34,565 bases of DNA from Secundilactobacillus similis DSM 23365 = JCM 2765. Lineage in GTDB: Bacteria > Bacillota > Bacilli > Lactobacillales > Lactobacillaceae. A program made the translations under genes and the position numbers. The stretch lies in contig NZ_BBAD01000031.1 in assembly GCF_001311075.1 (NCBI RefSeq), forward strand, positions 1 to 34,565, given 5' to 3'. Positions 1 through 34,565 of the stretch are shown here, in pieces (the first letter of the stretch is position 1; each line of letters starts with the position of its first letter). A model generated the notes under the pieces. That model made no database searches. It was not told the origin of the DNA and saw nothing but the letters and a program-made list of their open reading frames with translations.

Positions 1-66
1 AAAGCCCAGGCGCTTTCACGGAAGTCGCCTTACACGCCGCTCTTTAACCGCTTCTCTCCGCACTCT
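1..66 (-). repeat. Structured 3'-end palindromic repeat, copy A (cut by window edge)
   Basis: This is the gene-proximal arm of the repeat family described at 2413-2540, read on the minus strand. It shows GTGC, GGA, a variable 7-base stem strand (GAGAAGC), the GGTT bulge, AAAGAGC, then GTAAGG and an apical hairpin (AAAGC/GCTTT) at the window edge. The partner arm lies before base 1. The outer end overlaps the last codons and stop of the YibE/F gene ending at 44. Confidence 0.75.
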
Positions 67-2412: not shown

Positions 2413-2540
2413 AGAGTGCGGAGAAAAACGGGTTGAAAGCGGAGTGTAAGGGCGACCCGCAGAAAGTCGTGGGCTTGACGACTTTTTGTGGGTCGCCCTT
2501 ACATGCAGCTTTCAGTTTTTCGGAGCACGTTTCGGCGCAG
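2413..2540 (+). repeat. Structured palindromic repeat, copy B
   Basis: A 128-base imperfect palindrome. From the outside in: stem GTGC/GCAC; a symmetric internal loop with GGA on both strands; stem II GAAAAAC/GTTTTTC; a GGTT-type bulge on the first strand only; stem III TGAAAGC/GCTTTCA; a GGA versus TGCA internal loop; stem IV GTAAGGGCGACCC with its exact complement; and an apex with a GTCGT/ACGAC hairpin. It ends in the conserved tail CGTTTCGGCGCAG. It starts 4 bases after the terminator of the 39-residue gene. Same architecture but different stem sequences in copies at 1, 2929, 15623 and 17981. Confidence 0.85.
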
Positions 2541-2928
2541 TTGCCAAAATGCAGTTCCAATGGCAATCCCACCATATAGCCAACAGCACCAACAAAACAG
2601 TCCCAGAGGCGCCGAAATTCAATATGGAAGTAGTACTCGTTGCCTCAAGCACTCAAGTCACAAAACGCACTAACGCCAGTACGGTATCACCACAACTCAA
2701 CCAATCATTAATCGACATAAAAACCACCACATCAAAAAGAGAATGCCGCTCACCATCGCAGCATTCTCTTTTGTCGTTTATTGTTTAGTTGGTTATCTGG
2801 TAATGAGTGGTGAGGGCGACGTGCACTCCGATTACCTAGTTTTCGACGCCACTTAAATTGTCGTGTTTCGCTAACCAGTCATATAGTGAAGTTTTTTAAC
2901 GTTACAATATTGATTAGCCTGCGCCGAA
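2541..2928. other. Non-coding segment between inverted repeat copies
   Basis: This 388-base segment is bounded by the conserved tails of copies B and C in inverted orientation (GGCGCAG at its left, CTGCGCC at its right). No frame in it has a ribosome site plus recognisable protein sequence. The only clear structure is the hairpin at 2734-2772. It may be a decayed gene or cargo. Confidence 0.4.
2734..2772. terminator. Hairpin, possible bidirectional terminator
   Basis: AAAAGAGAATGC at 2734-2745 pairs perfectly with GCATTCTCTTTT at 2761-2772 around a 15-base loop, giving A-tract and T-tract on the two sides as in bidirectional terminators. No functional gene is seen feeding into it from either side. 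Confidence 0.55.
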
Positions 2929-3055
2929 ATGAGCTCCGCAAGGCAGAGAGTTGCACGTAAGCAACTTCCGCCACAAACCCCAAAAACCGGGGTTTCTGGC
3001 AAAAGTCGCTTACGCTCCACTCTCTAACCGCCTTGCTCCGCTCTCTAGCTCTCTA
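2929..3055 (-). repeat. Structured palindromic repeat, copy C
   Basis: Read on the minus strand from the usp stop: GAGC, GGA, stem II GCAAGGC, GGTT, AGAGAGT, GG, AGCGTAAGC, apex with GAAACCCC/GGGGTTT, then the complementary strand and the CGCCGAAA-tail. Stem II differs from copy B but is again fully complementary (GCAAGGC/GCCTTGC). Its apex is almost identical to copy E. It abuts the stop codon of the universal stress gene, which has no other terminator. Confidence 0.85.
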
Positions 3056-15430: not shown

Positions 15431-15480
15431 AAAGAAACGCGCGAAAAGAGCAAAGCGTTATGTGTAAGGGCGGCCGCCGT
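15431..15480 (-). repeat. Half copy (F) of the structured palindromic repeat
   Basis: On the plus strand GAAACGCGC, GAAAAGAGC, AAAGCGT and GTGTAAGGGCG follow the same order as the tail-side arm of the full copies (compare 15626 onward). No partner arm follows to the right, so it appears truncated. Confidence 0.6.
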
Positions 15481-15622
15481 AAAGCTACCAATTCCGGTAT
15501 TTTGCTGAGTGCTTCCAGCGACGTGCTTTGCTACTACGTTTGTTTCGGCTTGGTTTGGGCTTTGACTTCTTGGGGTTCCTTTAGTTCACTGTAGTTTGTC
15601 AGCTTTTTTTCTTTCTGGCCAC
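15481..15622. other. Intergenic stretch without recognisable gene
   Basis: The 532 bases between the surface gene and the regulator hold the promoter at 15306, half repeat F and full repeat D. This remaining part shows no coding signal and no clear hairpin apart from a T-rich run near 15605. Confidence 0.4.
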
Positions 15623-15750
15623 CACGCCGAAACGCGCAAAAAAGAGCAAAGAGTTGCATACAAGGCACCATCCCCAAAGGTCTAAAACCCAGGCCTTTGG
15701 GATGGTGCCCTTGTACTCCACTCTTTAACCGCTCTTTTTTGCGCTCTCTA
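15623..15750 (-). repeat. Structured palindromic repeat, copy D
   Basis: On the minus strand after the regulator stop: GCGC and a long stem II strand AAAAAAGAGC, bulge GGTT, AAAGAGT, GG, then TACAAGG and GCACCATCCC, and an apical hairpin CCAAAGGCC/ACCTTTGG. The partner strand mirrors these, ending in GCGCGTTTCGGCG. It lacks the GGA/GGA loop of the other copies but keeps the 4-base bulge. It supplies the stop region of the 15748 gene. Confidence 0.85.
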
Positions 15751-16656
15751 CGGCATAATATCCGTCAACGGCAAATCTTCCTCATACCGATGCCGCAACG
15801 CCGCCGTCTTCACTTCGATCACTTGGTTTTCGTTGATTCTCGCGAAGGCTAGCACTTCGCTTAACAGCCGTTCGATTTCTTCGGCGTCGTGCTTTTGGCT
15901 GATGGCGTTTTTGGCTGCCAACAGTTTCAACCGTGGCATGAAGTACGTCACGTGCTTCTTGGAACAAATTTGCACGCCCCGGTCAATTAACTGGTTACTC
16001 TGTTTTAATTTACCGATCGTTGCATAGTAGTTAGCCGTGTAGAAAATCATCGTTAATAACCGTAAGTAGTTATCGCCAACCCGGCTAAAGTACAGCTCCT
16101 CGTCCTTCAACACGTTGTTGATAAACGTATGGATCTTTTTAAAGTAAAATGAGGCGCGTTCTGCTTGCTGCATCCGGCTGTACATGACGCCAGAACCCAC
16201 GTACACCAACTGGGTGAAAATCGTTTCGTGCCGTTCATCCAAATCATTTAGGATTTGAGAATAGTCATACAAAATCTCTTCTGGTTTCTGATTGATCAGC
16301 GCCCCTAACAAGCCACGCAAGTAATAAAACTGCATCTTCAATAGAATTGAATCTAGCTGTTTCACATCAATTGCCTTGAGGCCCGTTAGCACCTTCTGGT
16401 AATCTTCCATGATCAGTTCCTGTTCCAGTTGGTCTAACTGAACCTGAAGCTGGTTGGCGGAGGCACTATCGTCTTCGTTTAAATCATCAATGGTTAGGCC
16501 GATTCGACTGCAGAGCTTAGTTAAAATCAACAGCGATGGCACGTGGCCGCCGCTTTCGAACTTGCTGAGCGTCGACTGGGTACAGATGCCCTGACAGATT
16601 TTAACTTGTGAAATATGCAGCTCTTTTCGGCGAGTTACAAATTTTTCAATGTTCAT
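15748..16656 (-). CDS. XRE-family regulator with TPR-like C-terminal domain (paralogue 1)
   Basis: A 302-residue cytoplasmic regulator. Residues 1-60 form an XRE helix-turn-helix (RKELHISQ...ICTQSTLSKFESG). The rest is all-helical and TPR-like, as in Rgg/PlcR-type regulators that sense a peptide or another ligand. It matches the regulator at 27061 almost throughout (shared QGICTQ(S/A)TLSKFES, ILNDLD(E/D)(R/T)H(E/Q)TIFT, GSGV(M/A)YSR, KKHVTY). The start is ATG 16656, with GGAAGTGG about 9 bases upstream; an upstream extension would overlap the neighbouring gene. It lies 26 bases after the SufT-like gene and is likely cotranscribed with it. No short pheromone gene is evident beside it. Confidence 0.82.
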   Translation of the reverse strand: MNIEKFVTRRKELHISQVKICQGICTQSTLSKFESGGHVPSLLILTKLCSRIGLTIDDLNEDDSASANQLQVQLDQLEQELIMEDYQKVLTGLKAIDVKQLDSILLKMQFYYLRGLLGALINQKPEEILYDYSQILNDLDERHETIFTQLVYVGSGVMYSRMQQAERASFYFKKIHTFINNVLKDEELYFSRVGDNYLRLLTMIFYTANYYATIGKLKQSNQLIDRGVQICSKKHVTYFMPRLKLLAAKNAISQKHDAEEIERLLSEVLAFARINENQVIEVKTAALRHRYEEDLPLTDIMP

Positions 16657-16682
16657 GTATTTAATCCACTTCCAATAATTAA

Positions 16683-17807: not shown

Positions 17808-17980
17808 GTTTTGTTTTTTGATTGGTGTTATCCAACTTTGGGAATCGGGCCTAGCTTTCTGCCACATAGTAGTCATTGCGACGTGCGTTGCTGCCATATG
17901 GTTTTCGGCGCCTATTAGGCTTCGTCGTTGGCGTTTGTCAGCGGCCTAGTGGGATTGCTTCCACAACCTCGTTCTAGCTT

Positions 17981-18116
17981 CTGCGCCGAAACGTGCTCCA
18001 GGGAGCAGAGAGTTGCACATAAGCAACTTCCACCACAAACCCCAAAAACCGGGGTTTCTGGCGGAAGTCGCTTATGCTCCACTCTCTAGGCGCTCCCTTC
18101 CGCACTCTGCACTCTA
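17981..18116 (-). repeat. Structured palindromic repeat, copy E
   Basis: On the minus strand after the sufB stop: GTGC, GGA, stem II AGGGAGC, bulge GCCT, AGAGAGT, GGAG, CATAAGC, apex with AAACCCC/GGGGTTT, and the complementary strand ending GGAGCACGTTTCGGCGCAG. The apical half is nearly the same as copy C. No other terminator follows the suf operon. Confidence 0.85.
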
Positions 18117-19519
18117 ACCAATTGACCCCTCCATCTCAAAACTAATCAACCGATTCAACTCAACCGCATACTCCATCGGCAACTGCTTCGTAAATGGTTC
18201 CACGAAGCCCATGATGATCATTTCCGTTGCTTTGGCTTCCGAGATACCACGGCTCATTAAGTAATACAACTGAGCTTCTGAAATCTTAGAAACTTTCGCT
18301 TCGTGCTCCATGGCGACCTTTGAGTTGTAGATTTCGTTGTATGGGATCGTGTTTGAGGATGATTGGTCATCCAAGATGATCGTGTCACATTCCACGTGGC
18401 CCAGTGAGTGGTCGGCGTTCTTGTTGAAACGCACTGTGCCCCGGTAATCCGTGGCGCCACCCGTTTTGGCGATTGACTTGGAAACAATCGAACTGGTCGT
18501 GTGTGGGGCGTTGTGGATCATCCGCGCACCGGAATCTTGGCGGATGCCGTTACTTGCCACAGCAATCGACAACATCGTCCCGTGGGCGCCCTCACCGTTT
18601 AGGTAGACGCTTGGGTATTTCATCGTAACTTTTGAACCCAAGTTACCGTCGACCCATTCCATGGTGGCGTTGGCTTCCGCCGCTGCCCGCTTGGTTTCCA
18701 AACTGTAGACGTTATCTGACCAGTTTTGAATTGTGGTGTAACGGCAGTAAGCGTCCTTTTGCACGTTCACTTCAACCACCGCTGCATGCAAACTATCCTG
18801 CGAGTAGTTCGGTGCGGTACAGCCTTCAACGTAGTCCACCCGCGCACCTTCATCTACGATGATCAAGGTCCGTTCGAACTGACCAGAGTTTTCGGAGTTG
18901 AGACGGAAATACGATTGGATCGGCGTCTTCGTCTGCACACCCTTTGGCACGTAGATGAATGAGCACCTGACCAAACGGCCGCGTTCAACGCTGCAAACTT
19001 GTTGTCGGTTGGCTTAACCAACTTGCCGAACCACTTCTTGAACAGTTCTGGGTATTCCTTCAATGCAGTATCAGTATCCGTGAAAATGATACCTAACTTT
19101 TCGAAGTCTTCCCGCATGTTGTGGTACACCACTTCGGATTCGTACTGGGCAGATGAACCGGCCAAGTAGCTCCGTTCAGCTTCTGGCACGCCTAAGCGGT
19201 CGAAGGTCTTCTTCAAGTCTTCAGGCACGTCATCCCAGTCACGGTATTTTTTATCCGTCATCTTCTGGTAATAGTGCATGTTGGCGAGGTCCAGTTTCGA
19301 CAAATCGGGACCGTAATCTGGCAGTGGTAACTTCTTGTACGCCTCGTAAGCTTTTAAGCGGTAGTCCAGCATCCATTGGGGTTCATCCTTAGCTGCTGAA
19401 ATTTCACGGACGGTTTCTTCAGTCAGGCCACGGCCGGTCGTATACTTCGGCTGAATGTCGTCGTGAAAACCGTACTCGTAGTCTTTATCGTTGATCACAC
19501 TATCTGGTACTTCTGACAT
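18114..19519 (-). CDS. sufB: Fe-S cluster assembly protein SufB, frameshifted
   Basis: Reconstructed length 468 residues with one base restored near 18964. SufB is the scaffold subunit of the SufBCD complex. The N-terminal part holds [20 protein letters not shown] and the C-terminal part the SufB core with [14 protein letters not shown] and the late [14 protein letters not shown] and [15 protein letters not shown] motifs. The frame breaks inside [14 protein letters not shown]: the sequence reads GGTGC where GGTGGC is expected. SufB is normally essential in Bacillota, so true loss is unlikely. It is the last gene of the suf operon, 3 bases after sufU, and ends at repeat E. Confidence 0.92.
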
Positions 19520-27060: not shown

Positions 27061-27905
27061 TTATCCCTGAAACGCGGCAATTTTTGCCAGAAGTTGGGTG
27101 TTGTTGTTTAATTTAGCAAAGGTCTTGGCATCATTCAAGTGATCCACCACTTCAGTTTCAGAACGGTGCTCATCCCGCGCATTTTGCGCCAACAAGAAAC
27201 AGATCTTGGCTGAGTAGTAAGTCACGTGTTCTTAGCGCAGATACCGTAGCCGTAATGCAACAGCGAATCACTGGTTTCGTAGTCGGCCACGCTGGCAAAA
27301 TACTCCGCCGTATAAAACACCATGTTGAGCACTCGCCAAATTGACTGGTTATCGGTCAACGGTAACGTCTGCAGCTTATCAAAAATCTTCTGGAAGTAGA
27401 ACTCACTCTTCGCATTTTCCCCATTCCGACTATACGCCACCCCACTCCCGGTATACGCCAGCAGTGTGAAAATCGTTTGGTGCGTGTCGTCCAAATCATT
27501 TAAAATGAGGTTAAAGTCGTACAAGGTATCGGCAATTGGTTTGTCCAATAACGCCGACAGATACCCGCGCACGAAGTAGTACTGCATCTGGCTCTTGTTG
27601 TTCAAGTCAGCCAGGTCAATCTTACCTAGGTCTGCCAAGGCGCTCTCGTACTCGCTGGTGATCAACTTAAATTCGGCCTGTTCCAACAACGCACTGGCCT
27701 GCGACTGTGCCGGTTGATTCACCGGAAAAACGTCGTCCAACTTTAGGTCCAACCGCGCGCACAATTGCGTTAAGATGCGGATGGCGGGCGCCTTGCCCGA
27801 ACTCTCAAACTTACTGAGGGTGGCTTGGGTGCAGATGCCCTGACAGAGTTCCGCTTGCGACAAGTGATGCGCCTTACGCGCTTCAATAAAACGATTAATA
27901 TCCAT
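27061..27905 (-). CDS. XRE-family regulator with TPR-like C-terminal domain (paralogue 2), frameshifted
   Basis: Reconstructed length 281 residues with one base restored near 27230 (AA for AAA). Helix-turn-helix: RKAHHLSQAELCQGICTQATLSKFES. The remaining helical part is homologous to the regulator at 15748; after the repair it continues KHVTYYSAKICFLLAQNA, matching KHVTYFMPRLKLLAAKNA there. It probably senses a ligand and controls neighbouring genes: it is divergent from menG and upstream of the polyprenyl synthase on the same strand. Its own promoter is an extended -10. The ribosome site is weak. Control of quinone genes is inference from position. Confidence 0.8.
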
Positions 27906-34232: not shown

Positions 34233-34565
34233 AACTTTCGGTCATCTTACACAATAGTTTCATGAAAAGTTTTGAAACGATAAAAAAGCACTGGTGAATC
34301 TGCCGCCACCTCGAAAAAGTGGCGATTTTAGCCTTAGATTCTGGTTTAACCACCTAGTTGGTCTACTCAACTCACGTCAATTTAGCATTAATTCACACGA
34401 AATTAGTAATATTATATCCTGTGCCGTGTTCTTGTACAACAATTTCCGTTTTTTCTTGTCTTATTTCGTGGCAAGAATGAGAGAATTGTGCGGTACTGTC
34501 GCTTGTGTCAAGCGTAAGTGTACGGAGCTTGTGAAATTTGGCTTCGTTGGTGCGTTAATCATGGG
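34233..34565. other. Right-edge region without recognisable gene
   Basis: No coding frame with support. It has a hairpin CGCCAC/GTGGCG with an A-rich loop at 34304-34324 followed by ATTTT, and a possible TTCTTG/CAAGAA hairpin near 34453-34477. The window ends in GGTGCGTTAATCATGGG, discussed as a possible 5' edge of a cobalamin riboswitch. Confidence 0.35.

Follow-up and report, generated by a model that had tools for sequence, protein, structure and literature searches.

What kind of element can change its stems from copy to copy and still pair in each of them is the question raised by an intergenic repeat of Secundilactobacillus. The window analysed here, a stretch of 34,565 nucleotides, is the entire contig C31 of a 3.45 Mb draft genome. 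The genus is given by other genomes classed with it, in which the sequence behind sufB reads the same as in Secundilactobacillus folii (L243 and L111), S. yichangensis (L248 and L113) and S. kimchicus (L246 and L112). It holds five copies of the repeat beside genes that include YibE/F, Usp, an HTH regulator and SufB, and three explanations were put forward in the earlier note, which was made from the sequence alone and inferred selection on structure: an RNA 3' element, a terminator and a palindromic mobile element. Small hairpin repeats are a known kind of bacterial sequence, to judge from the accessible parts of the papers on BOX, RUP and SPRITE (PMC3049150) and on REPs (PMC3733652). In this study, we show the copy number and distribution of the element, a shape kept with free stem sequence, its presence or absence at orthologous sites, its remnants and a subfamily with inverted repeats; spread is seen through presence and absence between species. 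We consider it probable (about 0.6) that the repeat is a palindromic mobile element of Lactobacillaceae, non-autonomous and present in high copy number, which resembles BOX, REP and MITE repeats in kind and whose arms are kept complementary by template switching.

Read on the strand with the 5' foot AGA, the hairpin core is about 113 nt long (range 110-117 nt). From the base upwards, the conserved AGA foot on the 5' side is followed by stem I (4 bp), loop 1 (3x3, frequently GGA/GGA), stem II (7 bp, variable), a 4-nt bulge on the 5' arm, mostly GGTT, stem III (7 bp) and loop 2 (3x3, frequently GGA/GCA). The upper part consists of a long and variable stem IV and a small apical hairpin, and the whole hairpin is followed by GTTTCGGC or GTTTAGGC. 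Tails of type 1 measure about 26 nt, their tandem copies being spaced every 139-142 nt. Tails of type 2 form a second domain with a length of about 130 nt and with TTTCGGC and GCCGAAA as its closing sequences, as seen in an alignment of the tails of 41 copies; because its seven closing pairs are nearly invariant, this domain offers no covariation to test. The bulge has exactly four nucleotides in 137 of 137 aligned copies of the source genome (G000) and in 47 of 48 copies of G260, a genome from another genus (g12). Loop 2 is fully Watson-Crick in none of the 137 copies and in one of the 48, loop 1 in 27 and six, respectively, all counted in alignments that are fitted to the covariance model and lean towards it. 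Loop 1 reads GGA/GGA in 52 of the 137 copies, so that the earlier note's "usually" was too strong. A conserved shape, in which stems vary while the bulge and the second loop never close, is strongly supported.

The covariance model was built from 32 copies (alignment A3), excluding a rearranged copy in L008, and it matches, each in its place, all five window copies that the earlier note had described with one architecture (Table 1). That stem II varies and yet is complementary in each copy is likewise borne out. Against dinucleotide shuffles, the four complete window copies fold with z scores of -8.0 to -10.0; the partial copy 1 shows no folding excess (z 0.02). By eye, a degenerate 3'-half copy seems to come after the second domain of copy 4, at about 15435-15500. 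Tandem partial copies, with apical hairpin, 3' arm and tail and lacking the 5' arm, were also seen by eye after complete copies at other loci (L242, L248, L249, L250, L113, L119), and they come after several of the copies behind sufB. Among the genes of the window, sufB (18114-19519, minus strand) is split between two frames by a frameshift or a sequencing error, and a second sufB-like gene of 77% identity is found on contig C7. A relative of the regulator at 15748-16659 lies at 27204-27905 on the minus strand; with a TGA inside the match, it is perhaps a pseudogene.

Table 1. Copies of the element and associated features. Positions are those of the window unless a locus is named; bits refer to covariance-model matches, z to folding against dinucleotide shuffles.
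Feature	Position	Strand	Remarks
Copy 1, partial (5' arm, bulge, start of stem IV)	1-66	-	match 1-73, 38.7 bits; 3' end cut by contig end
Copy 2, hairpin core	2416-2528	+	foot AGA 2413-2415; match 2406-2553, 144.1 bits; z -9.96
Copy 2, second domain (TTTCGGC ... GCCGAAA and conserved tail)	2529-2660, end approximate	+	tail alignment
Classic terminator between second domains of copies 2 and 3	2733-2769	.	terminator scan and sequence; bidirectional by eye
Copy 3, second domain	2800-2930, end approximate	-	tail alignment
Copy 3, hairpin core	2931-3043	-	9 nt behind usp stop; match 2906-3053, 152.6 bits; z -8.14
Copy 4, second domain	15500-15633, end approximate	-	tail alignment
Copy 4, hairpin core	15634-15744	-	3 nt behind HTH regulator stop; match 15609-15754, 133.7 bits; z -7.95
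Copy 5, second domain	17860-17992, end approximate	-	tail alignment
Copy 5, hairpin core	17993-18105	-	8 nt behind sufB stop; match 17968-18115, 156.0 bits; z -9.60
Second repeat, longer examples	L389:1501-2390, L393:1501-2275, L401:1501-2345, L407:1501-2316		one repeat end at window 34500

Searching the genome and its relatives, as the earlier note had asked, revealed many further copies. The source genome holds at least 149 (150 of 1,036 first-look candidates scored), a lower bound, since the 131-bit copy L105:9559 is absent from that list, and G260 holds at least 148 matches (150 candidates scored). Stretches of both genomes were picked for holding copies and therefore give no unbiased density. 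Sixty genomes were sampled, the source included, and 25 of them gave a match; these 25 include every one of the 14 others from the same genus, and also two from outside the family, which have four weak matches each. Within the family sample, again including the source, 147 of 301 genomes and 23 of 40 genera are positive. A scan of 32 named loci around sufB gave matches in S. folii, S. yichangensis and Lacticaseibacillus zeae and weaker ones in Limosilactobacillus urinaemulieris and Lentilactobacillus parafarraginis. Rfam has no match in the window, and BOX was not among the Rfam matches; five further loci gave two below-threshold microRNA matches alone, taken as chance. A plasmid or phage origin was dropped after one copy found no blastn match in plasmid or phage collections. 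Titles and abstract openings in the literature include none that describes this repeat in lactobacilli, in a search that left subscription papers mostly outside and is thus not proof that the repeat is unpublished; in the accessible part of the survey PMC2267715, L. johnsonii is the one Lactobacillus mentioned. The literature listings show no repeat that combines freely varying sequence with a fixed bulge and loop and with occurrence in many genera.

Pairing exceeds chance. In the 32 copies, 96.8% of cells pair, as compared to 75.7% when the 3' letters are shuffled and 36-52% with slid partners. Both sides change at 36 of 41 pairs, and none of 500 shuffles reaches any of five measures, so that the covariation which the earlier note had proposed to look for is strong. 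For the larger sets, alignment A4 contributed the first 70 of its 125 matches to the pair counts and the first 71 to the position counts, A5 contributed 67 of 111 and A6 48 of 55; the matches left out were mostly reverse-strand matches of the same copies, or weak or cut ones. In stems I-III of the 137 copies from the source genome, 682 of 2,465 cells depart from the commonest pair in both letters, 468 by transitions and 214 by transversions, and mismatches comprise 38 G-T, 15 A-C and 10 others, all of these being cells and not events. The corresponding cells of G260 show no bias, with 16 G-T and 17 A-C.

How the stems change is seen best between similar copies. Copies that differ at one of 25 pairs do so on both arms in 17 differences and on one arm in 10, a count that reuses copies many times. 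Nearest neighbours were therefore counted separately: 55 pairs in the source genome gave 88 double versus 34 single differences, and G260 gave about equal numbers (27 single versus 24 double). Stepwise mutation with selection should leave an excess of single changes at short distance, which the double excess in the source genome does not resemble. In some pairs of copies, the differences are confined to stems I and II and affect both arms, with no change in stem III or in the first seven pairs of stem IV; because outer stems thus differ on both arms and inner ones match, one conversion tract would not account for them. L091:15958 and the window copy at 15609 differ at four stem II pairs, all of them double, and between L249 and L250 an entire block differs on both arms, with both copies folding well. 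For hairpins of RNA genes, multi-base changes on both arms in one step have been described as maintenance by template switching, according to the accessible part of PMC8794818. Such switching at the hairpin would explain the two-arm changes here as well; the element shares the one-step pattern with those hairpins and differs from them as a dispersed repeat with many copies per genome. In G260 the template-switch signal is weak. Since both arms often seem to change in one step, compensatory change alone is no proof of selection on RNA in this element. Among single changes between nearest neighbours, G-T exceeds A-C by 25 to 7 in the source genome and by 15 to 4 in G260, which fits selection on a folded top strand, be it DNA or RNA.

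Evidence of gain and loss comes from orthologous sites. Of 24 copies of G260 in loci with target windows, 19 yielded an orthologous comparison with two relatives (genomes about 80% alike, flank identity about 72-91%), giving 29 comparisons. In 22 of them the gap contains no model match at E 1e-5, although some gaps are long and could hide decayed copies; the remaining seven contain a match, one of them in the other orientation. By eye, G165 in L351 and G275 in L362 have only the joined feet where others have the hairpin, and such joined feet are deletion remnants. A clean empty site with target duplication was not seen in 11 comparisons. A gene in L295, at first taken to be shortened by a copy, was rejected on re-reading. 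Of the 14 genomes that gave a sufB match, 12, the source among them, have a copy directly behind the sufB stop, with very different stems; the exceptions have a classic terminator (L246) or the next gene (L251) there. The recurrent copy behind sufB could mean function or an old insertion. Together with the subfamily bearing terminal inverted repeats, the 22 orthologous comparisons without a model match and the deletion remnants make the mobile element the best supported of the options that the earlier note had named.

Placement relative to genes was derived from gene calls of a simple codon-score script, not from annotation, and window copy 1 does not enter the counts. On the 5' side, 100 of 138 copies in the source genome have a sense stop as their neighbour, 30 have an opposed gene start and eight have a sequence edge. 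In 61 of the 138, a stop codon ends within 12 nt before the first hairpin pair or lies inside the hairpin (34 at 0-3 nt, 19 at 4-12 nt, eight inside), and the element itself frequently supplies a TAG stop. Random insertion does not account for such close placement in the source genome. In G260 there is no sense bias, with 17 sense stops, 28 opposed starts and three edges in 48 copies. T-runs are also found close by: of the 75 source-genome copies away from a stop, 21 are preceded by a T-run no more than 15 nt from the foot, as compared to 10 and two in two windows farther upstream, and in G260 the figures are 13 of 48 versus three and three. The claim that all copies begin at gene 3' ends in one orientation loosely fits the window, where copy 2 stands directly behind the T-run of a terminator and the yibF stop (44-46) lies inside copy 1; genome-wide it holds as a tendency, non-random in the source genome and lacking in G260. 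A link to the replication strand in G260 was considered and discarded (27 plus and 29 minus copies in one half, 23 and 37 in the other, the terminus taken opposite dnaA).

Placement behind stop codons is also what a transcription terminator, or a substitute for one, would show, and at the regulator gene seven of the best-matching relatives of the same genus have, by eye, a classic hairpin directly behind the stop where the source genome has the element. The hairpin itself, however, is not followed by a T-run; directly after the stem, 70 tails have GTTTCGGC or similar instead. Moreover, classic terminators lie downstream of genes with the element at their stop about as often as downstream of controls (25/61 versus 130/268, p 0.32; with shorter loops 16/61 versus 84/268, p 0.54), and at sufB such a terminator often comes after the element by eye. 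We regard a terminator role as very unlikely, contrary to one option of the earlier note. That the element replaces terminators, to which a stricter scan pointed (13/61 versus 93/268 controls), was dropped, as other criteria were non-significant. The related statement that four genes with the element lack any other terminator stands in part: the scan found none for the regulator and sufB copies, but usp has the classic terminator of Table 1, which lies some 161 nt past the hairpin.

A functional mRNA 3' element, that is a stable hairpin behind the stop which shields from 3' exonucleases or is a processing site and is kept by selection on RNA shape, would account for the 61 copies at sense stops, for the recurrence behind sufB with differing stems, and for the preference of G-T over A-C among single changes, as expected if the top strand folds. 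Some copies, however, lie behind a terminator T-run, which places these mostly outside the mRNA. The absence of sense bias in G260, the even G-T and A-C numbers in its stems I-III and the abundance of double transversions also argue against it, and we think it improbable. Integron attC sites conserve shape and unpaired bases, vary in stem sequence and are often found behind genes. A folded recombination site working in this manner might explain invariant unpaired bases within freely varying stems, the single-strand asymmetry of the wobble changes and the frequent position behind genes. Shape conservation is shared, but copies of the element are dispersed and form no cassette arrays, and the attC core sequences were not seen at the ends; we hold such a site to be the least probable of these readings.

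The mobile element that we favour resembles known systems in part. In the accessible part of PMC3049150, BOX, RUP and SPRITE of Streptococcus pneumoniae are small non-coding interspersed repeats, modular and seen as parasitic, which form stem-loops if transcribed and are enriched between convergent genes; BOX and RUP exceed 100 copies and make target duplications. The element is alike as a small, non-coding, interspersed stem-loop repeat of high copy number. Compared with that account, it differs in that their sequence is conserved, whereas its stems vary freely around a fixed bulge and loop in many genera (BOX was set apart by description), and in that no target duplication was seen. REPs of the GTAG and CGTC superfamilies, as the accessible part of PMC3733652 has it, are likewise palindromic and of high copy number, mostly behind coding regions, with 20-40 bp and an unpaired GTAG or CGTC tag. 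In place of such a short tagged palindrome, the element has a hairpin of 110-117 nt with an AGA foot, and it is not associated with Y1 transposases. Mobilisation of the IS200/IS605 or REP/RAYT type was rejected as a general explanation: Y1 (PF01797) occurs in 13 of the 25 genomes with the element and in 12 of the 35 without it, which leaves 12 positive genomes lacking Y1, and the one Y1 locus of the source genome has no element within the surrounding 3.4 kb. Among these Y1 transposases, checked by co-occurrence, no propagating enzyme was found.

MITEs are similar in being non-coding and of high copy number, and a GC-rich subfamily of about 345 bp (16 of 138 copies, several with identical stems) carries terminal inverted repeats around CGTTTGTGTCCAGCG, on the left in 12 copies and on the right in 12. 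In the remaining copies, the hairpin arms are the sole inverted repeat seen, and neither a parent transposon nor a target duplication was found; among the loci examined, no paired ends enclose a convincing gene. Allowing up to two mismatches, the genome contains the CGTTTGTGTCCAGCG pattern 297 times and the reversed pattern twice, and paired ends lie about 310 or 650-900 nt apart in the loci examined, some of which overlap. A second abundant repeat thus appears, in which these terminal inverted repeats enclose either the hairpin element or a non-coding sequence of about 760-900 bp. Between the ends of four longer examples no covariance-model match was found, one example folds with z -11.7, and an Rfam scan of three gave nothing above threshold. 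At its left end the contig is cut within a hairpin copy, at its right end (34500-34565) it stops 65 nt after an end of the inverted-repeat family, and several other contigs start or end near such ends; these repeats probably break the assembly. In G085, from another genus, GC-rich non-coding sequence rich in inverted repeats starts near CCGAGCTGGCTCCGCGGTGG in two places (L368 and L373), perhaps another structured repeat.

As to mechanism, an enzyme or host factor may recognise the folded top strand by its shape, the likely features being the 4-nt bulge, which lies 14 positions above the base, and the GGA/GCA-type loop, which lies seven pairs beyond the bulge. Template switching during replication at the hairpin would copy one arm onto the other, and the arms would stay complementary. 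New copies may insert, or survive, where they do least harm, that is behind stops or terminator T-runs and sometimes before ribosome-binding sites. More tentatively, and rather doubtful at present, the element might represent a class of dispersed elements not described before, which a factor of Lactobacillaceae would recognise by nothing but their shape, through a 4-nt bulge and a G-A-type loop at fixed spacing on the folded top strand, and which would re-copy their own arms in replication. Its sequence would then be free and its shape inherited, and with the non-coding inverted-repeat elements of about 345 and 850 bp in this genome it would form a set of mobile elements that are encoded in structure and have no proteins of their own.

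If our reading is true, many lactobacilli share, in many copies per genome, an element that drifts in sequence and yet retains its shape. Such an element would provide a natural test bed with many copies for template-switch mutation, which is hard to tell from selection in ordinary RNA genes. It would also call for caution, as covariation, usually strong evidence of a functional RNA, could arise in palindromic repeats. For the annotation of these genomes it would mean that the element supplies stop codons, is found in leaders as well as in 3' regions, and interrupts short-read assemblies, the left end of this contig being an example.
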